NCBI RefSeq assembly: GCF_020150455.1
Contig: NZ_CP083740.1
Span: forward strand, 372,001-436,000
Length of the DNA stretch: 64,000 nucleotides
Direction of reading: 5' to 3'
Origin: Bremerella sp. TYQ1
GTDB lineage: Bacteria > Planctomycetota > Planctomycetia > Pirellulales > Pirellulaceae
Shown: positions 29,068-44,018 of the stretch, in pieces
How positions within the stretch are numbered: position 1 is the stretch's first letter
How the letters are laid out: every line of letters begins with the position of its first letter
The notes under the pieces: model-generated
Told to the model about the DNA's origin: nothing
Databases searched by the model: none
Seen by the model: the letters and a program-made list of their open reading frames with translations, nothing else
Translations under genes and position numbers: made by a program

Positions 29068-30921
29068 CTAGCGAAGCTTTCGCACGTAGACGTAATATGC
29101 CCCGCGAGTTTGGTTGCCTCGATCTGGAATTCGGAGCATCGTCTGCAACATGGCCGGACCAGCAGGCAGGTCTAATTCAAACTGCACGAATTCGGCGTCG
29201 GGTTCAACACGCGTCTCGGCCATTGTCTCGCCGATCGAGATCTTCGCATGGTCGGCTTCGATCGGGCCTGGCCTCTCGGTTGGCCAGCGACGAAGCTCAA
29301 ATTGATAAGTTCCAGGAGAGAGCACTTCGATCGCCCAAGGGCCATTGCCCATTTGACCGGCGATTACGCCTGCCTGATTCCAGATACAGTCGCTGATCTC
29401 AGTGGTGAGCCAATCGTGCGACATCAATCGTGCCACAGGCTCTGCTTCAGCACCGATCGCAATGCGGCTGTATTCGGAAAACATCGGCGATTGATCGGCA
29501 AACCAGTCGTCGTAGGCGGCTTGAAGTTCGGTGACTAGTTTGCTGTGCTTCTGGGCGAGGTCTACCGATTGCCGAGGATCCTCGGCGATGTTGTAAAGTT
29601 CGACCGAGCCAGGCTCAGACGCATTGAGAACCAATCGCCACGGACCTTTGAGAACAGCCGTTTTGGCCTCCTTCGAAGGCAGCGGCAAACGTTGGCTTTG
29701 AATCACGTGAATGCGGTCATTGTCAATCGACTCTCGATCTTGCAACGCGGCAGAAAGATCGATGCCATCAAGCGGAGGGCCGTCAGGCTTTTTCACGCCG
29801 GTCAAAGACACGAGCGTTGGAAGGATATCGATGTCGGTCGCGAGGAGATCAACGTCTTTTCCTCCTGAAAGCTGGCCGTCCGGCCAATGAATAAAACAAG
29901 GAACACGGTGCCCACCTTCATACAACGATCCCTTCGCACCACGCATGTTGGCGGTGAAATGCGGCAACGGCTTGGAATGCATGTCGCCGTTGAGAGGCCA
30001 GCCCCCGGCAGGTCCATTATCGGTCATGAAGAGTAAGATGGTGTTGTCGGCAAGTTGCTTCTCCTGGAGGAACTTCCGGAGTCGCCCCAGGTTGTCATCG
30101 ATGTTGCTAATCAATGCGTAATAAGGGGCAGCCGTTTTGGCGACCCCTTTATCGAGATAGACTTGCTCTAACTTCGGATCAACATTCCACGGCCGATGCG
30201 GAGCGTTGGTGGCCAGGTAGACGAAGAATGGGGAATCACGCTGGGCGTCCATGAACTGCATCGCTTCGTCAAACCAGATGTCGGTGCAGAAGCCTTCGAA
30301 CTTTTCGACGTTGCCGTTTCGCGAGTAGTGATCGTCAAAGTAATCGTTCCCCAGGTAATCCGGTCCTTGCGATACGCCGCCGCCAAGATGCTGAACGACC
30401 GTCGAAAACCCTTGGTCTTGAGGACGCATCGGGTAGTTGTCGCCCAAGTGCCATTTGCCGAACATCCCGGTCTGATAGCCGTTGGCTTGAAAGACTTCGG
30501 CCAGCGTTAGCTCGTTTCCACGCATTAACGAACGACCCATGATCGTGTGCCAGATACCACTTCGCATGGGATGGCGACCAGACATCAACGCTGCCCGAGT
30601 CGGAGCACAAGTCGGACGCACATGGAAATCGGTCAGGCGAAGGCTTTCCGTAAAAAGACGATCCATATTCGGCGTGTCGATATAAGGATGCCCATGCGCG
30701 GCAACATCTTTATACCCTTGATCGTCGGCAAGTATCAAAACGATGTTAGGACGATCTCTTGACTCGGCGTTAAGTGGTGTTGTAAAAAAGAGTTGTGCGA
30801 AGAGCATCAGACTCACCGCAAATACGAGTGTAGTTATTCTGTGTAGCAAATGACGTGGGAATGTTCGGCGGCAACCGAGCGTTCCATAACGACGCGTCGA
30901 AATGGCAAGGAATTGAAACAT
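29068..30921 (-). CDS. Secreted sulfatase (formylglycine-dependent), paralogue
   Basis: This 617-residue sulfatase shares the layout of its downstream neighbour. It has a long basic N terminus followed by a hydrophobic stretch (TTLVFAVSLMLFAQLFFTT), the metal site IVLILADDQGYKDVAAHG, the formylglycine site TCAPTRAALMSGRHP, then GKWHLGDNYPM and FMTDNGPAGGWP. The C-terminal beta region ends GAYYVYVRKLR, close to the neighbour's ending, so the pair probably arose by tandem duplication. ATG 30921 has GGGAT at good spacing; ATG 30933 is possible. It lies first in a likely two-gene minus-strand operon and next to the left edge of the mobile island. Confidence 0.92.
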   Translation of the reverse strand: MFQFLAISTRRYGTLGCRRTFPRHLLHRITTLVFAVSLMLFAQLFFTTPLNAESRDRPNIVLILADDQGYKDVAAHGHPYIDTPNMDRLFTESLRLTDFHVRPTCAPTRAALMSGRHPMRSGIWHTIMGRSLMRGNELTLAEVFQANGYQTGMFGKWHLGDNYPMRPQDQGFSTVVQHLGGGVSQGPDYLGNDYFDDHYSRNGNVEKFEGFCTDIWFDEAMQFMDAQRDSPFFVYLATNAPHRPWNVDPKLEQVYLDKGVAKTAAPYYALISNIDDNLGRLRKFLQEKQLADNTILLFMTDNGPAGGWPLNGDMHSKPLPHFTANMRGAKGSLYEGGHRVPCFIHWPDGQLSGGKDVDLLATDIDILPTLVSLTGVKKPDGPPLDGIDLSAALQDRESIDNDRIHVIQSQRLPLPSKEAKTAVLKGPWRLVLNASEPGSVELYNIAEDPRQSVDLAQKHSKLVTELQAAYDDWFADQSPMFSEYSRIAIGAEAEPVARLMSHDWLTTEISDCIWNQAGVIAGQMGNGPWAIEVLSPGTYQFELRRWPTERPGPIEADHAKISIGETMAETRVEPDAEFVQFELDLPAGPAMLQTMLRIPDRGNQTRGAYYVYVRKLR

Positions 30922-31012
30922 GTGGGATCCCATTCTTCGGATGACGAGCGTGCTGCGCTCGTTTCAATCTCGTGGCTGGCTGCATCTACCGCTTAGCACG
31001 CGCATAAAAAGA

Positions 31013-31053
31013 CCAAGGGATCGCGGTCGGCAAACCGCATGGTGATCCCTTGG
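31013..31053. repeat. Nested inverted repeat at the left edge of the island
   Basis: CCAAGGGATC (31013-31022) pairs with GATCCCTTGG (31044-31053), and an inner GCGGT/ACCGC stem (31023-31027 and 31034-31038) closes a CGGCAA loop. It sits between the sulfatase start and the integrase start. A second hairpin with the same CGGCAA loop (CCCGG/CCGGG) lies about 70 bp further on, just before the integrase. Possible roles are a recombinase arm site or a transcript hairpin. Confidence 0.5.
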
Positions 31054-31154
31054 CGGCAAGGAACCGAAACCGGTTCCAGCTCTTAGTGTCCTCTCTCGAA
31101 TTTCATAAGTCAATTCCCGGCGGCAACCGGGGCAACTCCGTGAGGTAATTAAAA

Positions 31155-32303
31155 ATGGCAAGGAATCGAAAATCGCGTCGCCAGCAGCATGGTTCTGCGT
31201 GGCATTGGAAGCAGACGGACTGCTGGTACTACACACCACCCGGGACAAAAAAGCGAGAAGCTCTCTTCGACGAGGATGGTGAGCGGATCCGGGGCAAGGA
31301 GAACAAGGAGGCGGCCCAACTAGCCCTGGCACGGATCAAGTTGACCGATGAGTTGACGCCTGTCTCGTCGGCACCCTCGAAAGACTGGACGGTAGCCCAA
31401 GTCTGCGAGATCTACTTGGCGGATCTTGCGAACACGGCGACCCCAGAGTGGGTTGGTCTTTGCCAAGCCTGGCTGAACGACTTCTGTGGTTACTGCGGAG
31501 CATTGTCCGTCTCCGAACTCAAGAAGAAGCACTTGCGAATCTGGCTCCAAAAGCACAAGACCTGGAACAACAACTCGCAGCGGAATGTCATTGCCTGTAT
31601 CAAGGCTGCATTCAATTTCTGCTGCAAGTTTGATGACCTTGATACCAACCCGCTTGCCAGCTACCAGAAGCCTGCAGCCACAGCTCGCGTGACTTCGTTC
31701 AGTCCCGAGGAAGAAAAAGCGATCTACACGACCACGAACAAAGCCCATGCCTTGTTTCTGAAGTGTTGTATTTTGACGGGAGCTCGTCCGTTCTCCGAAA
31801 TGGCGATGGTGACGGCTGATCACGTCGTCGAAACACCGCACGGTATGTTTTATTTGCTAAAGGCTCGTACCGCAGAGGGGGGCCACGGTCATAAGGCCGC
31901 CAAGAAGACTGGCAAGGATCGGCGGATCATGCTCTGTGAGGAGATGGAAGAGATCACGCGGCAACTCATGCTCGAAGCACCGAAGGGCTCCGGGATCCCT
32001 CTGCTGCGAACGACGCATGGAAAGCAGTGGAAACGCTGCAACGGCGTTCAGCAGTTTTGCAATCTCAAGGAAACGCTCAACCTACCGGACGACCGGGTGA
32101 CCTACACGTGTCGCCACACGTTTGCCAAGCGAACCTTGTCCGGGTACTACACGGGCCAACCCACCACGATCGAAGTCTTGGCAGGTTTGATGGGTAACAC
32201 GCCGAAAGTTTGCTGGGATCATTACGCCCAGTGGGCCGACGACTACAACGATCCGCTCTGGGCGGCCCTTGGTAAGTCCAAAGCGAGGCAGTCTGCGGCC
32301 TAG
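31155..32303 (+). CDS. Tyrosine recombinase (integrase)
   Basis: The 382-residue protein has a basic N terminus, a core-binding SAM-like domain (about 75-165) and a catalytic domain. Visible active-site residues are Arg in LTGARPFSEM (near 211), Lys in AKKTGKDRRIM, YTCRHTFAKR (a Tyr replaces the first His of HxxR, as in many phage integrases) and the nucleophile Tyr in VCWDHYAQW (near 357). It would catalyse site-specific insertion and excision of the element that follows. ATG 31155 is preceded by GAGG at about 10 nt. It faces into the island, whose cargo extends to about 43.6 kb; I could not find a matching attachment-site pair. Confidence 0.92.
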   Translation: MARNRKSRRQQHGSAWHWKQTDCWYYTPPGTKKREALFDEDGERIRGKENKEAAQLALARIKLTDELTPVSSAPSKDWTVAQVCEIYLADLANTATPEWVGLCQAWLNDFCGYCGALSVSELKKKHLRIWLQKHKTWNNNSQRNVIACIKAAFNFCCKFDDLDTNPLASYQKPAATARVTSFSPEEEKAIYTTTNKAHALFLKCCILTGARPFSEMAMVTADHVVETPHGMFYLLKARTAEGGHGHKAAKKTGKDRRIMLCEEMEEITRQLMLEAPKGSGIPLLRTTHGKQWKRCNGVQQFCNLKETLNLPDDRVTYTCRHTFAKRTLSGYYTGQPTTIEVLAGLMGNTPKVCWDHYAQWADDYNDPLWAALGKSKARQSAA

Positions 32304-33022: not shown

Positions 33023-33775
33023 ATGACGAACGATTCTTCCATGGAGTCCCACGCCGCGACTACGCGGTGGTGGATCTCAACCGCGGGCAAGGCCGAAGGC
33101 CCCTTTCCTCAAGGCCACGTAATTGACGCGGTCAACGCTGGCGAAATCCCCATCACAGCCCACGCGTGCCCAGTTGGCGGAACGCAGTGGAAACGCTTGG
33201 GGCAGTGGCCGCCGTTTGCCGAGATGGTGCCTCCTGCGCCAGAGGTTATTCCTCCCCCTCCTAACCCTCCAACTTCGTTGCCCAATGATTCTCCGCTGAC
33301 CAATCCCCGTTTACCGGCGATCGCCAATTGGATCTGCATCTACGCGATCTTAGTCAGCCCTGTGATTTGGGCGATCGGCTATCTCTCGTTCTGTGTGACA
33401 GGCCCAACCTATCACCCAGACTCTCGATTTGTTGGCTTTGAGATTCTCTTGGGAGTTGCAGACTTTTTCGCTTCGCTGGCAGCTACGGCTTTCAAGGTGC
33501 TCGGTGGACTCAGGCTACGAAATCTCAGGTCGTCCGGTGCCAAGATTCTGAAGTGGACCATGTTGGCCTATCTCGCTTTTGTGATGCTTCAGCTTCTCAT
33601 CATCATCCCGATCGCCGTCGTTGCCTCAGAAAGCGATTATGCGGAAACCACACCCGCGGGAGAGATTATTTTCTTCTTCATGTTCGTTATGGCACTTGGG
33701 GCATTGGCATTTGAAATCTTTGCGATTGTGTGGCTTCACCAGAACGCCAACCGGCTCCCCCTCGACAAAAACTAA
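33023..33775 (+). CDS. GYF-like (DUF4339) domain membrane protein 1
   Basis: The 250-residue protein starts with a GYF_2-type domain (residues about 14-70): RWWISTAGKAEGPFPQGHVI and GTQWKRLGQWPPF, where the W-x-x-x-x-G...GP pattern normally binds Pro-rich peptides. A Pro-rich linker (PPAPEVIPPPPNPPTSLP) follows and then about four transmembrane helices (about 98-122, 135-160, 178-205, 213-236). It is the first of three tandem genes with the same domain at the N terminus. The domain is common in planctomycete membrane proteins, with unknown partners. The Pro-rich linker could itself be a ligand for a sister GYF domain, which is inference. Confidence 0.75.
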   Translation: MTNDSSMESHAATTRWWISTAGKAEGPFPQGHVIDAVNAGEIPITAHACPVGGTQWKRLGQWPPFAEMVPPAPEVIPPPPNPPTSLPNDSPLTNPRLPAIANWICIYAILVSPVIWAIGYLSFCVTGPTYHPDSRFVGFEILLGVADFFASLAATAFKVLGGLRLRNLRSSGAKILKWTMLAYLAFVMLQLLIIIPIAVVASESDYAETTPAGEIIFFFMFVMALGALAFEIFAIVWLHQNANRLPLDKN

Positions 33776-33797
33776 GCACTACGAGAGGAGAGAATTC

Positions 33798-34310
33798 ATG
33801 GATCAAGAAGGATGGTACTTTGAGCACAACGGGCAACGTGTGGGTCCGTTCTTTCGTGATGAACTTGCCGAATTGGCAAGAGGCAAGATCCTCAACTCGA
33901 GCACTCGATTGATTGACGCTTCGGGGCAAAAAGTTCGTGCGGCAGAACAACTTGGCCTGGATGCTAGAGCTCAGCTTGTCCCGGGAACGAATGCGACAGC
34001 TGCTGTAAACGTCAGAAATTCACCCGACGAGGTGGAAGAACTCGTGACTGCCGAGATCGTCCCTGCTCCTCGCCGTATCGTTCAAACGCCTACAGATTGC
34101 GACAGCTTGTCGCTATCTGAGTTCATCGTGTATGGGCTCGCGTTTCTCTTTCTGCCGATGATCTGTGTCCTTGTTAGTTCCTTCTTGTACTACGTATGGA
34201 GATCTTCGTATCCCTGGAAGGCGCAACAGATCAACATTTTAGGGTTTGGAGTGTTCTTTTTGCACATCCTGTTCGGATGCGTGATTGGGATGATTGCAGG
34301 AGGTTCGTGA
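33798..34310 (+). CDS. GYF-like (DUF4339) domain membrane protein 2
   Basis: This 170-residue protein has the domain at residues 1-50: QEGWYFEHNGQRVGPFFRDE, then LARGKILNSSTRLIDASG. Two hydrophobic helices follow a linker of about 55 residues (about 112-138 and 147-169), so the domain probably faces the cytoplasm on a two-helix anchor. AGAGGAGAG lies 7 nt before ATG 33798 and fixes the start. It begins 22 bp after the first GYF gene. No enzymatic motif is seen. Confidence 0.75.
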   Translation: MDQEGWYFEHNGQRVGPFFRDELAELARGKILNSSTRLIDASGQKVRAAEQLGLDARAQLVPGTNATAAVNVRNSPDEVEELVTAEIVPAPRRIVQTPTDCDSLSLSEFIVYGLAFLFLPMICVLVSSFLYYVWRSSYPWKAQQINILGFGVFFLHILFGCVIGMIAGGS

Positions 34311-34372
34311 GGATAAGCAATCTTCACATCAAATGGGTTGAATTGATTTGAGCAATATCCGAAAGGAACTTT

Positions 34373-34777
34373 ATGAGCGAACAAGAGTGGTACTTCGAAC
34401 ACGCGAATCGGAAACTTGGACCTTTTCGAATTGCAGCACTTCAACACTTAGCGAGTGTTGGACTGATTGACTCGCATACAAAAGTGATCGACTCGACAGG
34501 AATCTGTACAGAAGCAAACGATATCGTGGATTGTTTGCCAATTCCTCCTTCTCCTCCATTATCAGAGGAGATGTTTCAAGCTCAAGGTACTTCGAATCAT
34601 TCGAAAGAGAATGAGTTAATCAATTCCGATCTATCCATTTCCAATGTGTTTCGATTTTTTGGATCGTTTCTGCCTAGCGCAGCAACGATTGGCGGATTGA
34701 TTTTCGCCTTGTTTATGCTTTCGCGCCTCGGCTACTTTTTAATGCTGTGCTGGGAGGCAATTTTTTCGGCCGATTAG
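34373..34777 (+). CDS. GYF-like (DUF4339) domain membrane protein 3
   Basis: The 134-residue product repeats the same N-terminal domain, EQEWYFEHANRKLGPFRIAA, with a linker containing PIPPSPPL and one or two C-terminal hydrophobic segments (about 92-130, FRFFGSFLPSAATIGGLIFA and onwards). Similarity to the second protein (W-Y-F-E-H-x-N at the same place) indicates a tandem duplication. The gene is more AT-rich than the surrounding core genes. It is followed by a bidirectional terminator. Confidence 0.72.
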   Translation: MSEQEWYFEHANRKLGPFRIAALQHLASVGLIDSHTKVIDSTGICTEANDIVDCLPIPPSPPLSEEMFQAQGTSNHSKENELINSDLSISNVFRFFGSFLPSAATIGGLIFALFMLSRLGYFLMLCWEAIFSAD

Positions 34778-35036: not shown

Positions 35037-35345
35037 TTAATCCGGCCGCCCTAAGGGAGTCGTGATGAAATGACTTTTCGGCTTGGGAGATTGGCTTCGA
35101 CGGGGTTTCTTAGCCTGGGGTTGAACTCGCATCAATCCCAATAATCGATCGATTTCGTTTTCTGAAATTCGGATACGTCCTTGGCCTTTAGCCCCACCTT
35201 GGCTGTACTCAATAAAAAGTCTTTGGCCGCGTATTTGAAATTGCCCGGAGTCGGATTGACTCAACCACTCGTAAAGAGTTAACACGGAAATGCCGAGACG
35301 CTCGGCAGCGTCCGCGGACGACAGAAGTTTGCTTGGGGTTGGCAT
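35037..35345 (-). CDS. Excisionase/MerR-type helix-turn-helix protein
   Basis: The 102-residue protein opens with KLLSSADAAERLGISVLTLY and continues EWLSQSDSGQ, the helix-turn-helix of the excisionase (HTH_17) family, then a short beta wing (QFQIRGQRLFIEY), a helix ENEIDRLLGLM, and a basic tail (KKPRRSQSPKPKSH) that could contact DNA. Such proteins act as recombination directionality factors or as repressors. It is divergent from the 35.5-kb gene, and the 11-bp-period iteron at 35404-35431 lies about 60 bp upstream of its start, with a second array upstream of the serine recombinase. Binding to these sites is inference. Confidence 0.8.
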   Translation of the reverse strand: MPTPSKLLSSADAAERLGISVLTLYEWLSQSDSGQFQIRGQRLFIEYSQGGAKGQGRIRISENEIDRLLGLMRVQPQAKKPRRSQSPKPKSHFITTPLGRPD

Positions 35346-36383: not shown

Positions 36384-36481
36384 TCGCAAATCGTAGCCTG
36401 ATCCCATTCCAAATCTTCATGGGATCCCTGGGCTCGTCGCCCGGTTGCTTCACATGAAACATTAGCAGAGGAGGTTCCACC

Positions 36482-38533
36482 ATGAACCAGGACCTGCCTA
36501 GCATGGGTGCGGCTAATGAAAAACTCACCTCGGAAGTCGTCAAATGGTGGACAGAGATGTCGGCGGTTTGCGACTTTGTTTTGACTGGATTCGATCCGGA
36601 AGCCTCGCTTGAAAAACGAGTCGAATGGGCCATCGCCTGTGGCCTCGAAATCGGTACGATCTATTCTCGGTTCAGCACCAAGCTACAGCATTCGACGGAT
36701 GACCAGGTCCGAGAGTGTATCCAATGGGCGGCAAAGAATCGCATCTACGTTCCGCCGGAGTACATTTCTGTAGACGAGGGCGTAAAGGGAAAGCAAACTC
36801 AGCGGGCTGGTCTCGACAGGACGAAACGGATCCTTCGCAAACGGCATGCTAAGGTCCTCTTGGTCTACAAAGCCAGCCGACTGTTCCGGCAGGCAGGTAA
36901 GGGATACCAATTCATCAACGAGGAGGTCGTCGAAGAAGGTCTGCGAGCCGTTAGCGTTTCTCAAGGCATTGATACCAACGACCGCAAGACCTGGAAACTG
37001 CAGTTGCAGATCCATGGCCTCTTGGACGATATGCTACTCGATGCAATTGCCGATCACGTTCGCTCGGGGCTGACGGGCCTGTTCCTTAACGGTTATACGA
37101 CGGGGGCACTCGGGATCGGTTATCGCCGTAAGGTGATTCCCGGTGCCCCACTCACCAATCGCGGTCTCCCTCGCACGATGCCCGAGGTCGACCCGGAAGC
37201 GGCCAAGCTGATTCAGGAACATGCCCAATTGTTACTCAATGGCATGGCGGTCCGCGAAGGCGTACGACGCTGGAACGCGGTCGGCGGTCCCGTGGACCCA
37301 CGATCTTCAAGCGGCAAGATGAGCTACCAAAGCTATCGACGACTCTTCACGAATATTCGCCTTGTCGGAAGATGGGAGTTCGGTCGCCGTCGTAATCAGT
37401 TTTCGACGAAGCTCGATAGTGTCAAGCAAGTCGAACAGCCTGATAACGAGGTGACCACCTTGCAGTGCGAAGAACTACGGATTCTGGATGACGCCACGTT
37501 CGAGGCGCTGCAAACGTTGTTTGGTGAACGTAAGACAGGTCCCCGAGGACCTCGTAAGGCTAAGAAGCTGAAACTGTGGGACTTGACCACAGAGTTCTTC
37601 TTCTGTGAACGCTGCAGCACGCCCGAGAGCCCGGTTCGGTTCTACCAAACGGGTGCTCAAGGCAAGGCGATGCAGTGCAAGAATGGTGACCAGTGTCCGT
37701 GCAAGTCGGCCGTTCGTCGCAAAGATGCGGTCGAGGCGATCTGCAACAGTCTCAGCCAGCTGATCCTGCGTGATGCCGAGCTGATCGAGTCGATCGTACT
37801 GCAGTGCCAGCAGTTGGATGCTCAGGCTGACCAGGGTCTGGAACAACAGCTAGTCCAGGCTCGTAAGCAGTTGGCTTTGCTCAAAAACCGGGTCCACGAT
37901 CTGTTCGAGTTGTCAGGCGAAGGCACCGAGGACGATCGCAAGGAGATCAAGGCCCGACTGCGGGCTGCCCAGTTGCAGCGGAACGCCGCCCAGAGCGAAG
38001 TGAATCGCTTGCAGCGGGCGGTCGACGGGACGACCAGCACGATGACGGTGGAACAGATCCGCGAGCGTCTGGCCGAGATGTGCGATCTGTTGAGCACAGC
38101 GGCGAATGGCGACCTCGGCGAGGATGCCGTCTACAAGACGCTCGCCGTATTCCGTGCTTTGACAGGCGGACAGATTTGGGTGCAGGTCGAACAGCGTGCC
38201 AATCGCAAACGGACTAACATCCGGGGGACCTTTCGTCCTCAACTGTTGAAGGCGTTCTCCGAACCGCTCCCAGGGGCCCATGCCCCGACTGCGGAACTGG
38301 TCACGGTCTGGCTACGCAAGCCGCCTCGCCTGGATCTGATTGCCGAACGCGTCCATCAACTGATCGACATCGAGGGCATGAGCCATCGCGAGACCGCAAA
38401 ACAACTGAAGCGCGAAGGGCACAACGTCAATTCGGGAAACGTTTGGTACAGCTACCGTCGCTGGTACGAGATGCAAGGCCTTGAGCCGCCAAACGTCCCC
38501 TACAACAACGGCAAAAAGCGACGCCCTCGCTAA
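36482..38533 (+). CDS. Large serine recombinase
   Basis: The 683-residue protein has a resolvase-type catalytic domain at about 57-215: TIYSRFSTKLQ with nucleophile Ser near residue 65, and LVYKASRLFRQ with the catalytic Arg. The recombinase domain follows (GALGIGYRRKV and onwards), then a zinc ribbon with Cys in FFFCERCSTPE and QCKNGDQCPCKS, a long coiled coil (about 455-520), and a C-terminal extension with an HTH-like MSHRETAKQL. An extra 55 residues precede the catalytic domain. AGAGGAGG upstream of ATG 36482 is a strong ribosome site. Two recombinases of different chemistry in one island suggest nested elements or separate insertion and excision duties. Confidence 0.93.
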   Translation: MNQDLPSMGAANEKLTSEVVKWWTEMSAVCDFVLTGFDPEASLEKRVEWAIACGLEIGTIYSRFSTKLQHSTDDQVRECIQWAAKNRIYVPPEYISVDEGVKGKQTQRAGLDRTKRILRKRHAKVLLVYKASRLFRQAGKGYQFINEEVVEEGLRAVSVSQGIDTNDRKTWKLQLQIHGLLDDMLLDAIADHVRSGLTGLFLNGYTTGALGIGYRRKVIPGAPLTNRGLPRTMPEVDPEAAKLIQEHAQLLLNGMAVREGVRRWNAVGGPVDPRSSSGKMSYQSYRRLFTNIRLVGRWEFGRRRNQFSTKLDSVKQVEQPDNEVTTLQCEELRILDDATFEALQTLFGERKTGPRGPRKAKKLKLWDLTTEFFFCERCSTPESPVRFYQTGAQGKAMQCKNGDQCPCKSAVRRKDAVEAICNSLSQLILRDAELIESIVLQCQQLDAQADQGLEQQLVQARKQLALLKNRVHDLFELSGEGTEDDRKEIKARLRAAQLQRNAAQSEVNRLQRAVDGTTSTMTVEQIRERLAEMCDLLSTAANGDLGEDAVYKTLAVFRALTGGQIWVQVEQRANRKRTNIRGTFRPQLLKAFSEPLPGAHAPTAELVTVWLRKPPRLDLIAERVHQLIDIEGMSHRETAKQLKREGHNVNSGNVWYSYRRWYEMQGLEPPNVPYNNGKKRRPR

Positions 38534-38557
38534 TCTGACCGTGATCGATCGATCATC

Positions 38558-38587
38558 AACGCCTCGTCCTCGCGACGAGGCGTTTTT
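38558..38587 (+). terminator. Intrinsic terminator after the serine recombinase
   Basis: AACGCCTCGTC (38558-38568) pairs perfectly with GACGAGGCGTT (38574-38584) around a 5-nt loop, and the stem runs into a T5 tract (38583-38587). It begins 25 bp after the recombinase stop. Confidence 0.9.
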
Positions 38588-38634
38588 CATGCGCCTAGCG
38601 ATTTTGGACTATCACCCAAATGAAAGGAGGATGA

Positions 38635-38796
38635 ATGCCCCCCATTTCTGATTCAAGTCATGTTCAAGATTCGGAGACCGACTCGCAGCGAGCGCAACTG
38701 GCGACTAATCTCGCCTACCTCGTCGTGCAGGCAAATAGACGTAAGCAGCAAGGCGGAGAAAAGACATCGAATAACGCCGAGGCTCCCGAAAACTAA
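38635..38796 (+). CDS. Small hydrophilic protein
   Basis: A 53-codon gene starting at ATG 38635 with the very strong ribosome site AAAGGAGG 4-5 nt upstream. The product begins MPPISDSSHVQDSETDSQRA and contains a short helix LATNLAYLVVQANRRKQQ before a polar tail. I recognise no family. Its last codon overlaps the start of repeat copy D. An overlapping ATG at 38631 opens a different frame and is not favoured. Confidence 0.55.
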   Translation: MPPISDSSHVQDSETDSQRAQLATNLAYLVVQANRRKQQGGEKTSNNAEAPEN

Positions 38797-38845
38797 ATTT
38801 CTGCCCAAAACGGGGCATAAATAGATGAGGGAGGTCTTATCCCTT
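38793..38845 (+). promoter_or_regulatory. Island boundary/promoter repeat, copy D
   Basis: AAATTT (38795-38800), 17 nt, TAAATA (38818-38823), then GATGAGGG. AGGGA (38828-38832) can pair with TCCCT (38840-38844). It overlaps the stop of the small gene and is about 90 bp before the DUF1257 gene, placing it as promoter of the cargo operon. Confidence 0.6.
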
Positions 38846-38911
38846 CCATGGTCATCACCATCTCCAGCTGAGAGGTGACCGCAATCTACTTCATCCCACA
38901 CAGGAGGTCTT

Positions 38912-39274
38912 ATGTCACATATCGTCAGCATCAAAACCGAAGTTCGTGATGTTACGGCGATCCGCCAGGCAACACGACGACTTCAACTTCCCGAGCCCAC
39001 GTACGGTGAGGTTCGCCTGTTCAATGATCGTAAGCGGGGCTGGGCGATCCAGCTTCGAGATTGGCGTTATCCGGTTGTCGCCGACGTGACGACCGGTCGG
39101 CTCGATTACGACAACTACAACGGCCATTGGGGCAGCCAGAAAGAACTCGATCAGTTTCTGCAGCGGTATGCCGTCGAGCGGGCGACGATCGAAGCCCGCA
39201 AGCAAGGCCACACCGCCGTCGAACAGGCGCTTCCGGACGGAAGCATCAAACTCGTCATTCAAGTTGGAGGGTAA
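38912..39274 (+). CDS. DUF1257 (Ycf35-like) protein
   Basis: The 120-residue product, MSHIVSIKTEVRDVTAIRQA and onwards, with WAIQLRDWRYPVVADVTTGR, YDNYNGHWG and a C-terminal DGSIKLVIQVGG, matches DUF1257, the family of the plastid/cyanobacterial Ycf35 protein. Its biochemical role is unknown. CAGGAGG lies before ATG 38912. It is followed at 4 bp by the DUF2997 gene. The pairing with DUF2997 and a Ycf46-like ATPase is the notable point. Confidence 0.85.
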   Translation: MSHIVSIKTEVRDVTAIRQATRRLQLPEPTYGEVRLFNDRKRGWAIQLRDWRYPVVADVTTGRLDYDNYNGHWGSQKELDQFLQRYAVERATIEARKQGHTAVEQALPDGSIKLVIQVGG

Positions 39275-39278
39275 GCTC

Positions 39279-39473
39279 TTGAAAACTATTGAGATTATCG
39301 TCAGCCCCACTGGCGAGTCACGCCTAGAAACGAGGGGCTTTCAGGGGACGGAGTGTCGCGAGGCAAGCCGCATTCTGGAAGCCGCCTTGGGACAACAAAC
39401 GTCCGAGACGCTCACAGCCGAGTTCCACGCCTCGGAAATCACGCAACAAAATCAAATCGAACAGAAGGAATAA
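39279..39473 (+). CDS. DUF2997 protein
   Basis: A 64-residue protein starting at TTG 39279 with GGAGGG 7 nt upstream, inside the last codons of the previous gene. KTIEIIVSPTGESRLETRGF followed by GTECREASRILEAALG is the DUF2997 pattern, with a conserved Cys and an amphipathic helix. Members are typically 50-70 residues and sit next to DUF1257. Function unknown. An in-frame extension upstream would overlap DUF1257 heavily and is rejected. Confidence 0.82.
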   Translation: MKTIEIIVSPTGESRLETRGFQGTECREASRILEAALGQQTSETLTAEFHASEITQQNQIEQKE

Positions 39474-39479
39474 CTGCCT

Positions 39480-40133
39480 ATGGATCCCATACTCAAACAC
39501 CCATCCCACAAAGCGGTCGATCTGGCACGCGTTCTGGTGATTGTCGAGGGAACCAACGACATTGAGTTCCTCCGTCGGATTTCATTGACGCTGCATGCGC
39601 ACAATCAAGACTTGCCCAATCTGGCCGAAATGGAACAGCAAGGGCAATTGGTGTTCGTTCCTTTCGGGGGCAGCAACTTGCCCAGTTGGACCTATCGGTT
39701 CGCTTCGCTGGGTAAACCAGAGTTTTTCTTGCTCGACCATGAAGTGCCGCCCGAAACGGAACAGCGTCAGGAATTGGCCGAGGTGATCAACCAGCGGCCA
39801 AACTGTCGAGCGGTGCTTACGCGCAAGCGTAGCCTGGAAAACTATCTTCATCCAGCAGCGATCCGAGAAGTTGCTCCAATCGAACTTACATTTGGCGACT
39901 TCGATCCGGTGGCCATCCTCGTCGCCAAGCAGCTCTATGAGAGCGGTCTCCACGACAGGCCTTGGGAGCTCTTATCGCGACGTTCGCAGAATCGCCAGTC
40001 CAGCCGTGCCAAACGCTGGCTCAACACGCAGGTCGCGGCCCATATGACCATTGACCACCTTCGGAACCGAGATCCCGAAGGCGAAATCGCCACCTGGCTG
40101 ACCACGATCGGACAACTAGCCCACTCTGTCTAA
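39480..40133 (+). CDS. TOPRIM-like protein (OLD/DUF4435 type)
   Basis: The 217-residue protein begins with a TOPRIM-like fold: VLVIVEGTNDIEFL gives the Glu (near residue 23) and EGxxD pattern, FVPFGGSN follows, and FFLLDHEV gives an acidic pair near residue 87. CRAVLTRKRSLENYLHP resembles the 'K-R-x-x-E-N-Y' motif of OLD-type TOPRIM and DUF4435 proteins. TOPRIM domains with Mg2+ cut or relax DNA or handle RNA; here no ATPase is fused, but a separate AAA gene is adjacent. It ends in an intrinsic terminator overlapping the stop, so the ATPase may have its own promoter or depend on readthrough. Confidence 0.75.
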   Translation: MDPILKHPSHKAVDLARVLVIVEGTNDIEFLRRISLTLHAHNQDLPNLAEMEQQGQLVFVPFGGSNLPSWTYRFASLGKPEFFLLDHEVPPETEQRQELAEVINQRPNCRAVLTRKRSLENYLHPAAIREVAPIELTFGDFDPVAILVAKQLYESGLHDRPWELLSRRSQNRQSSRAKRWLNTQVAAHMTIDHLRNRDPEGEIATWLTTIGQLAHSV

Positions 40134-40155
40134 AGCTCGCTCTCGCGAGCTTTTT
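40132..40155 (+). terminator. Intrinsic terminator after the TOPRIM gene
   Basis: AAAGCTCGC (40132-40140) pairs perfectly with GCGAGCTTT (40145-40153) around a TCTC loop, with T5 (40151-40155). It starts inside the stop codon, 32 bp before the ATPase gene. Confidence 0.88.
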
Positions 40156-40186
40156 CATTTCAAGACTTCATTTACAAGGAATCGGT

Positions 40187-41683
40187 ATGCGCTTAGCAGA
40201 AGAAATACAGGAACTGGTGCGAGCTGGCTTCAGTGGCATCTGGATTCGCAGCTGCGAACAGGATGATGCGATCGCCGAACTGGCTCAGCTTTGCCGCGAC
40301 GAAGACTGGCGGATGAATACCTGGGATATTGATGTCGGTCTCAGAGGTGCCCCGACGGCCCCAGCAGAATCGCCAGCGGTGTCGGTCACCGATCCCTTAG
40401 GGGCTGTGCGACATCTCGAATCGCTTCCCAGCAGCGGACAGCCTTCGCTCCTGGTACTATCGAATCTCCACCGTTTCCTCGGCTCAGCGGAGGTGGTACA
40501 GGCAATCTCTCACCAGGTTTCGCAGGGAAAAGCTCATCAGCGTTTTCTCGTGATTCTGGCACCGGTGGTTCAGCTACCAGTGGAACTCGAACGTGTGTTC
40601 ACCGTGGTAGAGCATGAGCTGCCATCTCGGGAACAACTTGCAGAAATTGCCGCAGAGATTGCGACCGAAGGAGATGAGTTCCCTGCAGGTGTGGAGCGAG
40701 AACGGATTCTCGATGCGGCCTGTGGCTTGAGCCGCTACGAGGCGGAAAACGCGTTTGCCCTATCCCTGGTGAGGCATGGCCGACTGGAGCCGTCGGCTAT
40801 CTGGCAACTCAAGTCGCAGACGCTCATCAAGAGTGGTCTGCTTTCGCTTCATCGTGGCGGAGAGTCGTTTGCCGAACTGGGAGGGTTAGGATCGCTCAAA
40901 CAGTTTTGCTGTCAGGCACTGCGATCACATGAATCCCACTCAGTCCAAGCGAAGGGCGTATTGCTGCTGGGGGTGCCGGGCACGGGTAAGTCTGCCTTCG
41001 CCAAGGCGCTTGGCCGTGAGATTGGCAGGCCGACGTTGACGCTCGACGTCGGTGCACTCATGGGCGGCATCGTCGGCCAAACTGAGGAGCGAACTCGTAG
41101 GGCGTTGAAAATCATCGATGCGATGCAGCCTGCGGTACTCTTCATCGACGAATTGGAAAAGGCCCTCGGCGGCACCTCCAATTCCGGCCAGACCGATAGC
41201 GGTGTGGGCTCACGGATGCTCGGGGCGCTACTCACCTGGCTGGCTGATCACGAATCGGACGTGTTCGTGATTGCTACGAGTAACGACGTCTCTAAGCTAC
41301 CGCCGGAGCTCACTCGAGCGGAACGCTTCGATGCAATTTTCTTTCTCGACTTACCTGGGAGGTCACAGAAGGAAGCGATCTGGCAGATGTATCTGGAACG
41401 CTTTGGGTTGGAGCACTCGCAGGATCTGCCCAACGACGGATCGTGGACGGGCGCCGAGATTCGTGCCTGTTGCCGGTTGGCCGCTCTCTTGAATGTTTCC
41501 TTGGTGCAGGCGGCGCAGAACGTGGTTCCGGTCGCCGTCACGTCCGCCGAGTCGGTTGAGCGACTCCGTAGCTGGGCGAGCGGTCGCTGTCTCTCTGCCG
41601 AGTCCGGGGGCATGTTCACCACAACGACTCAGGCTACGCGAAAGTCGCGGCGACGACTAACCCAGAACCCTGAATCCAATTAG
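40187..41683 (+). CDS. Ycf46-like AAA ATPase
   Basis: The 498-residue protein has an N-terminal region (about 1-230) of unknown fold, beginning LAEEIQELVRAGFSGIWIRS, and a classical AAA module: Walker A GVPGTGKSAFAKAL (near 262), Walker B AVLFIDELEKALGG (near 320), sensor VIATSND and a second Arg region in RAERFDAIFFLDLP. The Glu-Lys after Walker B and the GSRMLGALLTWLADH segment match Ycf46-type ATPases of cyanobacteria and plastids. It presumably forms a ring and remodels a protein or nucleoprotein partner. The neighbours DUF1257 and DUF2997 are themselves known from cyanobacteria, which suggests a functional set. Confidence 0.88.
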   Translation: MRLAEEIQELVRAGFSGIWIRSCEQDDAIAELAQLCRDEDWRMNTWDIDVGLRGAPTAPAESPAVSVTDPLGAVRHLESLPSSGQPSLLVLSNLHRFLGSAEVVQAISHQVSQGKAHQRFLVILAPVVQLPVELERVFTVVEHELPSREQLAEIAAEIATEGDEFPAGVERERILDAACGLSRYEAENAFALSLVRHGRLEPSAIWQLKSQTLIKSGLLSLHRGGESFAELGGLGSLKQFCCQALRSHESHSVQAKGVLLLGVPGTGKSAFAKALGREIGRPTLTLDVGALMGGIVGQTEERTRRALKIIDAMQPAVLFIDELEKALGGTSNSGQTDSGVGSRMLGALLTWLADHESDVFVIATSNDVSKLPPELTRAERFDAIFFLDLPGRSQKEAIWQMYLERFGLEHSQDLPNDGSWTGAEIRACCRLAALLNVSLVQAAQNVVPVAVTSAESVERLRSWASGRCLSAESGGMFTTTTQATRKSRRRLTQNPESN

Positions 41684-41716
41684 CCCAAAACTAACCCATC
41701 TTTACGTGAGGTATTT

Positions 41717-42658
41717 ATGACGGCAACAACTTTAGAACAGCCGACCGATCGCAGCAGCCCCTCCGGGAGACTGCGATCCACCATGTGCGCGACCCGGGTA
41801 AACTTTACCTGGTTAGGCACGCAGAAGACGTTGACCCCAGCTCAACGGGCTCAGGCGGCGCTATCCTTCGACGCTCAGGGCGAATTCTTGAGTGCGGGCA
41901 AGAAACTGCTCGACACAAAGAATCCACGCTTCAAAGCGGTGACCTCGGAACGGAATCGAATCCGCTCGTTCTGGACGTCCATGAGCCTGCCTTATCCGGA
42001 ACCGGCTGTGCGATTGATTCGGCAGGATAGGGTCGACACGTTTCAAGACTGGATGAGTGAGCATCGCCAGGAGCTAACCAAGGCAGTCGAGGAACTCGAC
42101 GAAGATTATTTCTCGCTGAAAGAGGCAGCGCGGCAGCGACTTGGTCGCCTCTACAACGAGGCCGATTACCCAATATCGTTGATCGGGCTGTTCGACGTTA
42201 CCTGGGATTTCCCCAATGTGGAGGCTCCGTCCTATCTGCGGCAACTCGATCCTCAGCTGTACCAGGAAGAGTGTCGTCGCGTGCAGGCTCGGTTTGATGA
42301 GGCAGTTCAACTGGCTGAGTCCGCCTTCGTGGAAGAGCTATCCGGCTTGGTTACACATCTGACGGAACGCCTTTCGGGACAGCAGGATGGTCGCGCCAAA
42401 GTCTTTCGGGACTCGGCGGTTGGAAATTTGAATGAGTTCTTTGAGCGATTTCGTTCCTTGAATGTTCGGTCAAATGACCAACTCGACTCACTCGTTTCAC
42501 AGTGCCAGGACATTGTCCAGGGCGTTCAACCTCAGACGTTACGAGACGACGCTCAGGTACGCCAGACGGTCAGCCGTGAACTATCGAGCGTTCAGGCCAC
42601 GTTGGACGAACTGTTGGTCGATCGTCCACGTCGGCGGATTATCCGCTCCCCGAAGTGA
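41717..42658 (+). CDS. DUF3150-like coiled-coil protein
   Basis: The 313-residue product is almost wholly helical with long charged segments: VEELDEDYFSLKEAARQRLG, ECRRVQARFDEAVQLAESAF and FRSLNVRSNDQLDSLVSQCQ. A central hydrophobic-aromatic patch reads YPISLIGLFDVTWDFPNVEA. The overall layout (KxLxxxxxR, central 'W.FPN', C-terminal coil) resembles DUF3150, a family found in phages and mobile elements next to AAA ATPases. A partner or substrate adaptor for the upstream ATPase is inferred. It lies 33 bp downstream of that gene and 8 bp before the next. Confidence 0.65.
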   Translation: MTATTLEQPTDRSSPSGRLRSTMCATRVNFTWLGTQKTLTPAQRAQAALSFDAQGEFLSAGKKLLDTKNPRFKAVTSERNRIRSFWTSMSLPYPEPAVRLIRQDRVDTFQDWMSEHRQELTKAVEELDEDYFSLKEAARQRLGRLYNEADYPISLIGLFDVTWDFPNVEAPSYLRQLDPQLYQEECRRVQARFDEAVQLAESAFVEELSGLVTHLTERLSGQQDGRAKVFRDSAVGNLNEFFERFRSLNVRSNDQLDSLVSQCQDIVQGVQPQTLRDDAQVRQTVSRELSSVQATLDELLVDRPRRRIIRSPK

Positions 42659-42666
42659 GGTGCCCT

Positions 42667-42915
42667 ATGCAACTTGTCATCTCATCCACCGGGACCATTC
42701 GCTGTCTCTATGACGAGACGCTCGACCTCCATACGCTCGGCACACTATCGATCTCGCGCGGCTCCCATGTCGAGCCGAACGAAGATGGCCAGTGGTTCGC
42801 AGATCTTTCGCCCGTCGGCGGGCCACAGCTCGGGCCTTTCGTTAGTCGTAGTGACGCGTTGACCGCTGAGGTTCGCTGGCTTGAAGAGAATTGGCTCTCT
42901 TCAAGCAACGACTAA
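42667..42915 (+). CDS. Small protein of unknown function
   Basis: The 82-residue product from ATG 42667 (GAGG 6 nt upstream) reads QLVISSTGTIRCLYDETLDL, HVEPNEDGQWFADLSPVGGP and EVRWLEENWL. It is compact, beta-then-helix, with a 'W-x-A-D-L-S-P-V-x-G-P' block that looks conserved, but I do not know a named family. It closes the ATPase/DUF3150 unit and is followed by a strong terminator. Confidence 0.68.
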   Translation: MQLVISSTGTIRCLYDETLDLHTLGTLSISRGSHVEPNEDGQWFADLSPVGGPQLGPFVSRSDALTAEVRWLEENWLSSSND

Positions 42916-42941
42916 CGCACCTTTATTATCACAAACCTTCC

Positions 42942-42979
42942 AAAGCCCTTGCTGGATTGCGATCCGGCAAGGGCTTTTT
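42942..42979 (+). terminator. Intrinsic terminator closing the ATPase unit
   Basis: AAAGCCCTTGC (42942-42952) pairs perfectly with GCAAGGGCTTT (42967-42977) around a 14-nt loop, followed by T's to 42979. It lies 26 bp after the preceding stop. Confidence 0.9.
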
Positions 42980-43009
42980 CTGTTTCTTGACCTAAGGAGA
43001 AATGAATCC

Positions 43010-43225
43010 ATGCAAGCTTCAGAGTTTTATCGAGCCGTTGCTGAGGCAACTGGCGAAAGCGTTGCCACGATCCGTCAACTTGGATTTTCGCTAGTCGAGG
43101 AACCATTAGACGACCTGGATGACGATGTCTGTTTCGGCCCGAACGTCATCGACTGGGACGAAGTCGAGTATTTGAGAGCACGGGAGTCTTCGGGGAGCGA
43201 GTCTTATGAACCGAAAGCAGCCTAA
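43010..43225 (+). CDS. Small acidic protein
   Basis: The 71-residue product starts at ATG 43010, with AAGGAGA 9 nt upstream. An HTH-like N-terminal helix pair (EFYRAVAEATGESVATIRQL) is followed by a very acidic stretch (EEPLDDLDDDV). The TGESVATIRQLGF segment could be a short DNA-binding helix, but the acidic rest argues against strong DNA binding. No family recognised. It overlaps the next small gene by 20 bp. Confidence 0.6.
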   Translation: MQASEFYRAVAEATGESVATIRQLGFSLVEEPLDDLDDDVCFGPNVIDWDEVEYLRARESSGSESYEPKAA

Positions 43226-43385
43226 CTCCCAAACTTCGAGAACAGCAGCCTTGTCACTAACGCCACATTATCGGAATGCAGCGGATCAAGTCGATCTGCG
43301 TTTGATCCGAGGTGGTCAGCAGCGAGGGCGGCGTCAGTACCGATACCATCCTCGTTGTGCGAATTTGCGGCGCTCGGACAGGTAG
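43206..43385 (+). CDS. Small basic protein
   Basis: A 59-residue reading frame from ATG 43206, overlapping the previous gene's end. The product is strongly basic: VDLRLIRGGQQRGRRQYRYH, then PRCANLRRSDR. The acidic upstream and basic downstream products in overlapping genes could form a pair, which is inference. GCGAG is the only ribosome-site-like element, so support is mainly from position and composition. Confidence 0.4.
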   Translation: MNRKQPNSQTSRTAALSLTPHYRNAADQVDLRLIRGGQQRGRRQYRYHPRCANLRRSDR

Positions 43386-43413
43386 GTTTGTTACTTCGAG
43401 ACTGGGAGGAACT

Positions 43414-43542
43414 ATGGAAACCATCGTGCAGGCTGCATTCTGGGCCGTCGTTGCCTGGGCTTGCTACAAAACCGGAAAGCAATTGGGAAGTCGGAAGGGA
43501 TTCAACGCCGGTCGGCGACGTGGACGTTCATCGAGACGATAA
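43414..43542 (+). CDS. Small single-helix membrane protein
   Basis: A 42-residue gene with an excellent ribosome site GGGAGGA just upstream of ATG 43414. The product METIVQAAFWAVVAWACYKT is a hydrophobic helix, followed by a basic tail (GRRRGRSSRR) that would stay in the cytoplasm. This is the layout of a small regulatory membrane peptide or of a toxin-like peptide; nothing decides between them. It is followed 18 bp later by the strongest terminator of the window. Confidence 0.6.
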   Translation: METIVQAAFWAVVAWACYKTGKQLGSRKGFNAGRRRGRSSRR

Positions 43543-43560
43543 TAATGTTGCCGTAAACAA

Positions 43561-43606
43561 CGCAGCAGGGCCGTCCAGATGGGCGGCCCTGCTGCGTTTT
43601 CTTTTT
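43561..43606 (+). terminator. Strong intrinsic terminator at the end of the island cargo
   Basis: CGCAGCAGGGCCG (43561-43573) pairs perfectly over 13 bp with CGGCCCTGCTGCG (43584-43596), loop 10 nt, followed by TTTTCTTTTT (43597-43606). Confidence 0.93.
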
Positions 43607-44018
43607 AGCTATCCATCGGAAAATGTCTCCCCCATTCCGGGAGTTTCAATTCTCAAGACCACGAAAGGTAAGACTGTCTTAACAGTCATATAACGTGACG
43701 CGGCCCGAAAGCACATTGTCACCTGACTACGCTGGTCGTTCGGGATTAGGCGCCTGGAATATGGATATCACAATAGTTCGCGTCGGCTCCTCTTTCGGGC
43801 CTGACGTCGGTTCAACGTGCCCTCCTATTTCGATGAGGCAACGATCATTCCGATTGCCAAATGTTCCTCCTCCTCACTCGAAGTCGATGGTTGGTGCTTC
43901 TCGAATCGAGGTTCTTTCCCACGAATTTCAAGAATGAAATGTTTGGCAGCCAAGAAATCGCCAAGTAGAATTATGGCCGATCTATCCCAATCGAAAGCTA
44001 AACAAGGGACAAGTTAGA
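43607..44018. other. Intergenic region with half of the island repeat
   Basis: No convincing gene. GACTGT/ACAGTC form a small hairpin at 43676-43688, running into GTCATATAAC (43685-43694) and GTGA, identical over ten bases to the -10 half of repeat copy C, but no AAATTT lies 17 nt upstream. This may mark the right part of the island. I found no direct repeat of the left edge that would define attachment sites. Confidence 0.4.

Follow-up and report, generated by a model that had tools for sequence, protein, structure and literature searches.

A Cdc48-clade AAA ATPase recurs with DUF1257, DUF2997 and DUF3150-like proteins as a putative mobile module in planctomycetes, plasmids and viral contigs

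Several described gene sets share parts with the locus analyzed here, a run of six genes on an island of the planctomycete Bremerella sp. TYQ1 encoding a DUF1257 (Ycf35 family) protein, a DUF2997 protein, a TOPRIM-like protein, an AAA ATPase, a DUF3150-like protein and a conserved 82-amino acid (aa) protein (s82). We call the whole 64,000-nucleotide stretch that we analyzed (G000:C1:372001-436000, from a 6.66 Mb single-contig genome) the window, and give positions within it. In cyanobacteria, duf2997, ycf35 and fed7 form a cluster, and Fed7 matters under iron limitation (PMC4284462; this and the other papers are cited from the passages available), and both ycf35 and ycf46 are known from the plastids of red algae (PMC5940233). 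Iyer et al. described mobile E1/E2/JAB operons in 2006 (PMC1779556), and BilABCD comprises a ubiquitin-like protein (Ubl), an E2, a JAB and an E1 (PMC11354881). The module as a whole was not described in the titles and few passages that we covered of the openly available literature on DUF1257, DUF2997, Ycf35 and Ycf46 (by title mostly on plastid genomes), on DUF3150 and on planctomycete defense islands with DISARM and AAA ATPases.

In the window, the six genes all lie on the plus strand at 38912-42915, in the order DUF1257 (38912-39274), DUF2997 (39279-39473, TTG start), TOPRIM-like (39480-40133), AAA (40187-41683), DUF3150-like (41717-42658) and s82 (42667-42915). By open reading frame (ORF) reading the successive gaps are 4, 6, 53, 33 and 8 bp, and the original prediction, made from the sequence by itself, of six genes in one direction with gaps of 4-60 bp holds, at measured gaps of 4-53 bp. 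A conserved 71-aa protein (s71, 43010-43225, plus strand), beyond the span of that prediction, keeps its position in sibling loci and, judged by that position, is a seventh member of the gene set. The reading that we put first, tentatively, is that the set is a protein-remodeling machine of mobile elements, the window having an abbreviated copy with TOPRIM as an accessory; the mechanism is one that we infer.

We surveyed 294 planctomycete genomes, using an AAA threshold of E 1e-30 or better and scoring at most 5 AAA candidates per genome, and found the AAA in 91 genomes, DUF2997 in 44, DUF1257 in 25, a DUF3150-like protein in 16 and the TOPRIM protein in 8. Within 6 kb, DUF2997 accompanied DUF1257 in all 26 of its places and TOPRIM in 13 of 16, and the AAA accompanied DUF2997 in 51 of 64 places, DUF1257 in 21 of 26 and DUF3150 in 30 of 42; colocalization is far above the ~0.5% expected per place. 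We also compared by tblastn 27 planctomycete loci picked for AAA or DUF3150 matches and not for the other genes. The order DUF1257-DUF2997-AAA-DUF3150-s82 was intact in 24 of them, which by this comparison is more than chance, the exceptions being G181 (DUF1257 and DUF2997 not found), G275 (where the AAA comes first) and G216c8 (truncated at the end of its contig), and s82 followed DUF3150 in 25. Co-occurrence in these genomes and loci supports the proposal that the genes form a functional unit, and the co-occurrence elsewhere on which the original prediction depended was found both in planctomycetes and in viral contigs. That the genes are unrelated passengers, gathered on one island by chance, could be argued from the families, most of which have no known function, and from the terminator-like hairpins that divide the set. 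This is already contradicted by co-occurrence, with the order kept in those 24 loci, the core present in viral contigs and colocalization at the level given above, and we consider it very improbable. DUF1257/Ycf35, DUF2997 and DUF3150, families so far without an assigned function, would belong together in a single module that recurs on mobile elements, and each gains a list of partners with which it can be tested jointly. The TOPRIM gene was present in 10 of the 27 planctomycete loci and is, by its distribution, an accessory gene and not core.

Outside planctomycetes, an AAA alignment scan of viral contigs gave 559 relatives, of which we took the best 80 and searched for partners with our own profiles, finding DUF1257 in 60, DUF2997 in 56, DUF3150 in 51, s82 in 21, an iron-sulfur protein in 9, TOPRIM in 1 and s71 in 1. 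At 10/27 planctomycete and 1/80 viral loci, the idea of the TOPRIM protein as the effector of the set is weakened. We further examined ten plasmid and phage records (L039-L041 and L062-L068). The Manganitrophus plasmid encodes, in a row, the AAA, a small protein, DUF1257, DUF2997 and DUF3150; the frame of the last (L039 12126-13012) carries the annotation of a pair of overlapping genes, which may reflect a frameshift. The Paenibacillus and Paenarthrobacter plasmids carry the AAA, DUF1257 (in the second by our own profile only), DUF2997 and a 4Fe-4S/radical S-adenosylmethionine (radical-SAM) protein. Rhizobium phage RHph_I4 has the AAA, one gene, DUF1257 and DUF2997, with a DnaB-like helicase four genes after DUF2997, and in Rhodobacter phage RcTiptonus a DnaB-type helicase lies six genes after DUF2997. 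With our own profiles, DUF1257 and DUF2997 were both not found in the Corndog-type phage Krili, the satellite phage Javan368 and a Treponema plasmid.

Among the viral contigs, one group has a terminase relative ~4.4 kb upstream (phrog_675 E 1.4e-13 for L072, the one tested), with relatives in six other loci. In seven loci (L116, L128, L134, L138, L139, L141 and L142) a related AAA without DUF1257 lies in a phage replication/recombination cluster, its neighbors being SbcC/SbcD-, DnaC-, DnaB-, primase- and polymerase-like genes, as tested on single members. Three viral contigs of 148-180 kb (L127, L145 and L146) carry E1, two unknown genes, a ParB-like gene, a distant AAA, a RecA-like gene, DUF2997, a radical-SAM gene and DUF1257, the ParB-like gene directly before the AAA and the RecA-like gene directly after it (by reading); on gene content, these runs are a phage-type version of the module.

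Phages, plasmids and islands have a largely similar core, with changeable partners and with genes for replication, packaging, partition or defense nearby, a pattern that fits a remodeler serving the element better than one fixed defense system. The core would consist of the Cdc48-clade AAA ATPase, its partners DUF1257, DUF2997 and DUF3150, and two small proteins, s82 and s71. The ATPase would assemble into a ring, in complex with DUF3150 and the small proteins, which would act as adaptors delivering a target protein to it, and, spending ATP, it would pull the target apart or off DNA, leaving the element able to replicate, recombine, package or maintain itself. In fuller versions, whose run includes Ubl, E2/RING-like, JAB and E1-like genes, a ubiquitin-like protein may mark the target, and in other versions a beta-clamp-like gene would stand in place of this suite. 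The TOPRIM protein of the window copy would be a lineage-specific nucleic-acid accessory.

The family assignments behind this reading differ in firmness. The AAA of the window passes PF00004 (97.9 vs 21.2 bits, E 8e-28) and belongs to the classic (Cdc48/FtsH) clade, and the best solved relatives of its AAA domain are AFG2, VCP and Cdc48. Its catalytic residues (Walker A, Walker B and arginine residues, G265, G267, K268, D321, E322, R377 and R380) are invariant in 13 diverse sequences, which it has in common with classic AAA unfoldases such as Cdc48/p97 and AFG2; it differs from these in having a single AAA domain, close to the C-terminus, and in its N-terminal region. DUF2997 passes PF11211 (58.2 vs 24.1 bits, E 7.4e-16), with G12 and C26 invariant in 26 sequences. 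The DUF1257 protein scores 22.1 bits to PF06868 against a curated cut-off of 22.2 (E 1.8e-4), its sibling in the copy own54 scores 23.3 bits, and the family is matched by 12 of 14 aligned DUF1257 proteins, the window one included, at E 0.1 or better. Its AlphaFold2 model is confident (predicted local distance difference test score, pLDDT, 89.5). The DUF3150-like protein had no PF11348 match of its own in Pfam, and takes its name from homologues: several close ones are named DUF3150 in UniRef, and PF11348 is matched by 1 of 12 aligned DUF3150-like proteins (E 1.9e-9), the Manganitrophus plasmid protein, to which the window protein aligns at 23% identity. Its AlphaFold2 model (pLDDT 88.0) is mixed in the N-terminal half and helical in the C-terminal half, which is consistent with the ATPase working with a coiled-coil partner, as had been suggested. 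Neither the DUF1257 model nor the DUF3150-like model had a convincing match among solved structures.

DUF3150 also occurs in modules with a MoxR-type AAA and a VWA protein. We rejected membership in such a module for the window set, whose AAA best fits PF00004 and where no VWA match was found among the ten window proteins scanned with Pfam. A related arrangement on Cupriavidus plasmid pBB2 resembles ours in that a distant DUF3150-like stretch, matching the Manganitrophus protein at 30.3% along 89 aa, adjoins an ATP-binding protein; it differs in that a VWA-like protein is present and that the annotation of the 12 kb examined lists neither DUF1257 nor DUF2997. Residues 15-100 of the 217-aa protein match PADLOC GajA (E 4.4e-6) and a KRSLENYLHP block and a D-x-E pair are invariant in nine aligned sequences, on which grounds we call it TOPRIM-like (an OLD/GajA-type TOPRIM region without the ATPase part); it had no Pfam match. 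Its likeness to Gabija (GajA/GajB) and OLD nucleases lies in this region, and membership in either was rejected, the protein being a stand-alone TOPRIM without a fused ABC ATPase and no helicase match being found among the six proteins with PADLOC. PADLOC 2.0 gave the six window proteins single-domain matches only (GajA, IetA, TRIP13 and similar), and no system was called.

What follows s71 varies between loci. In 9 of the 27 planctomycete loci, Ubl, E2/RING-like, JAB and ThiF (E1-like) genes come in that order; 9 others have a beta-clamp-like gene there, for which a five-sequence profile finds DNA polymerase III beta (E 3.7e-6), and four (G137, G137b, G024 and G121) have a PD-(D/E)XK nuclease (E 1.2e-30 for one tested). 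ThiF is assigned firmly (E 1.8e-24). In JAB, the residues E, HxH, S and D are conserved in 9/9, and an Rpn11-like protein (E 0.61) is the only solved structure that it matches at E 1 or better. Ubl, about 74-107 aa long, has KIEGA in 9/9, with or without a tail, and the E2-like protein keeps HPH...CxG, with 20 C-terminal cysteines invariant in 8 aligned sequences. On viral contigs, L069 has a complete suite, L127 and L146 have JAB and E1 3-5 kb before the distant AAA, and L145 has E1 likewise before its own.

With these genes, 9 of the 27 sibling loci continue as Bil/Bub operons do. They differ in that the sibling Ubl is short, BilA having two Ubl domains, in that the sibling E2-like protein has a long Cys-rich C-terminal part, and in that the suite comes after an AAA/DUF1257/DUF3150 core, which the available passages do not mention for Bil/Bub. 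The window module itself we rejected as a Bil/Bub system: tblastn of window 24001-50000 with the Ubl, E2/RING, JAB and ThiF proteins of sibling loci gave no match. The recurrence of E1 and JAB suggests that some versions of the module act on tagged proteins, and this link, seen in planctomycete islands and in distant viral versions, points to coupling between an AAA ATPase and ubiquitin-like tagging in bacteria and in phages. The module also supplies a concrete hypothesis for ycf35 and ycf46 of plastids. A wider proposition, which we regard as unlikely, is that phages, plasmids and genomic islands have a ubiquitin-p97 machinery of their own, a version of the eukaryotic one, in which the Cdc48-clade AAA, with DUF1257, DUF2997 and DUF3150 as adaptors, would work on proteins tagged through Ubl, E1, E2/RING and JAB, plastid Ycf35 and Ycf46 being its domesticated remnant.

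Several observations weigh against a remodeling machine that serves its element. Of 146 AAA places in the 294 genomes, 51 have DUF2997 and 29 have DUF3150 within 6 kb, so that AAA relatives also exist without these partners. DUF1257 was not seen in 20 of the 80 viral loci, and the ten plasmid and phage records have DUF1257 with DUF2997 in 7 and DUF3150 in 1. The window copy lacks both the ubiquitin-like suite and the clamp, and the tag-and-remodel part is therefore inapplicable to it as it stands. Ubiquitin-like genes occur in 4 of 90 loci (80 viral loci plus the ten records), and their assignments include Pfam matches below the cut-off for JAB (E 0.002) and Ubl (E 0.021) and an E2-like protein with no Pfam family match and weak RING support (best E 0.007). 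Frequent defense neighbors, finally, suit a defense role equally well.

That role is the main rival: the module itself would be an anti-phage defense, its ATPase complex sensing or remodeling phage proteins and its effector being the TOPRIM nuclease or the ubiquitin-like suite. In 15 of the 27 loci, known defense genes (Hma, DISARM-type, type I restriction-modification, PglW, Gabija and SIR2) are found no more than 10 kb from the module, and in 8 of those 15 the defense gene is a divergent neighbor 150-600 bp from DUF1257. HmaA, HmaB and HmaC (E 0 each) lie by the copy at C1:3469436 of the same genome and Hma genes in two further loci; DISARM-type DrmD/DrmMI occur in three loci, type I methylases in five, and PglW, GajA with GajB, and the SIR2-type PDC-S25 in one each, and DrmD lies near G238c. 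Across the 13 module-bearing genomes, 6 of 16 DrmD-type helicases, 5 of 20 HsdM and 3 of 5 HmaB are within 10 kb of a module (expected 0.93%), and 12 of 35 modules have one of these three families at that distance; the binomial p-values (4.7e-9, 9.5e-7 and 7.9e-6) are optimistic because the families were chosen after being seen there. The TOPRIM region resembles GajA, and Bil is named among anti-phage pathways (PMC13373217), although in the passages available of the same paper protection against phage is not shown for Bub operons. Against this rival, the same core is found on phages and plasmids, in some beside replication genes; no such neighbor was found at the window, at the copies own530, own1939 and own54 or at eight other loci of the 27; and PADLOC gave domain-level matches only. 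Defense genes, moreover, cluster on mobile islands anyway. We therefore hold a defense function of the module to be possible but doubtful: neighbors in planctomycetes are often defense genes, and the phage contexts point to a role in serving the element. The islands that house the planctomycete module could nonetheless aid in finding new defense genes. The copy at C1:3469436 (L048/L049), beside the Hma operon, is the most divergent module of the genome, without TOPRIM and with a clamp-like gene, and the AAA gene of module G024b, beside a Gabija pair (L161 3369-4844), is broken by a stop.

A second alternative is a protein-modification or redox module, in which DUF2997, through its invariant cysteine, would be a small substrate or carrier, modified with a radical-SAM protein or ferredoxin as its partner, and the AAA an activase. 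The invariant Gly and Cys of DUF2997 would fit this, as would the Fer4_12/radical-SAM proteins (E 3.6e-33 and 3.8e-30) near DUF2997 on the Paenibacillus and Paenarthrobacter plasmids and the radical-SAM profile matches in 9/80 viral loci and one planctomycete locus (L025). In Synechocystis, duf2997, ycf35 and fed7 are one cluster (PMC4284462), and across 127 red algae ycf35 and ycf46 are two of the four plastid genes whose presence is linked to habitat (PMC5940233). The radical-SAM profile had no match in 20 planctomycete stretches (L042-L061), however, and Pfam gave no iron-sulfur match among the window proteins scanned; we judge this alternative quite unlikely. The module shares the DUF1257 and DUF2997 families with the Ycf35/DUF2997/Ycf46 systems of cyanobacteria and plastids, and differs from them as a mobile module with DUF3150 and without ferredoxin. 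Kinship of the AAA with plastid Ycf46 is putative; its residues 3-487 match phrog_8638 (E 2e-85), a profile that matches all 14 control genomes and so does not discriminate Ycf46.

The genome holds five full-length AAA copies, at identities of 100, 95, 93, 77 and 58%. Window 36471-43622 (7.15 kb) is present twice more in the genome, at 87.5 and 87.7%, and those two copies have 12.6 kb in common at 94.7%. The three-copy block begins at a large serine recombinase (36482-38533, plus strand; Pfam Resolvase E 4.7e-17, Recombinase E 1.8e-9) and ends just beyond a strong terminator-like hairpin (43559-43598, plus strand, 18-pair stem), homology stopping at 43610-43622. Near the left end of the island lies a tyrosine-recombinase-like integrase (31155-32303, plus strand; Phage_int_SAM_5 E 0.028, below cut-off) with relatives at 40-49% in own530 and own1939, and these two genes are the recombinases that the original prediction had reported, both upstream of the module. 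A small helix-turn-helix protein (35037-35345, minus strand), excisionase-like by reading, is 53.5% identical to an L042 gene whose product matches HTH_17 (E 1.1e-4, below cut-off); the region upstream of the module holds a helix-turn-helix gene and tyrosine-integrase-like genes, one in the window and two in each other copy. We looked for an attachment repeat or an empty site and found none. Two further terminator-like hairpins with T-rich tails lie on the plus strand inside the set, between the TOPRIM and AAA genes (40132-40153, 9-pair stem) and 3' of s82 (42942-42977, 16-pair stem), so that a single transcript is not assured; the scan found 13 such sites against 5.3 expected in shuffles. A conserved ORF of 53 aa (38635-38796, plus strand), without a Pfam match, has counterparts at 79% identity in both own530 and own1939.

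In three copies of this genome (window 29068-31155, L042 6203-7816 and L053 1367-3103) and in one of G238, the island abuts, with its integrase end, a sulfatase gene at the 5' end of that gene. Between own530 and own1939, the signal peptide of the sulfatase falls within the near-identical stretch, which ends at conserved DDMG codons; past these the sulfatases differ, and the element may furnish its target sulfatase gene with a new 5' end. Inside the island, window 33023-34777 encodes three GYF-like membrane proteins (by reading), the first of which has tblastn relatives near five other modules. In one module (L050 10539-14456) a serine recombinase gene is flanked by DUF1257 copies or fragments, which would fit insertion of an element at the DUF1257 gene.

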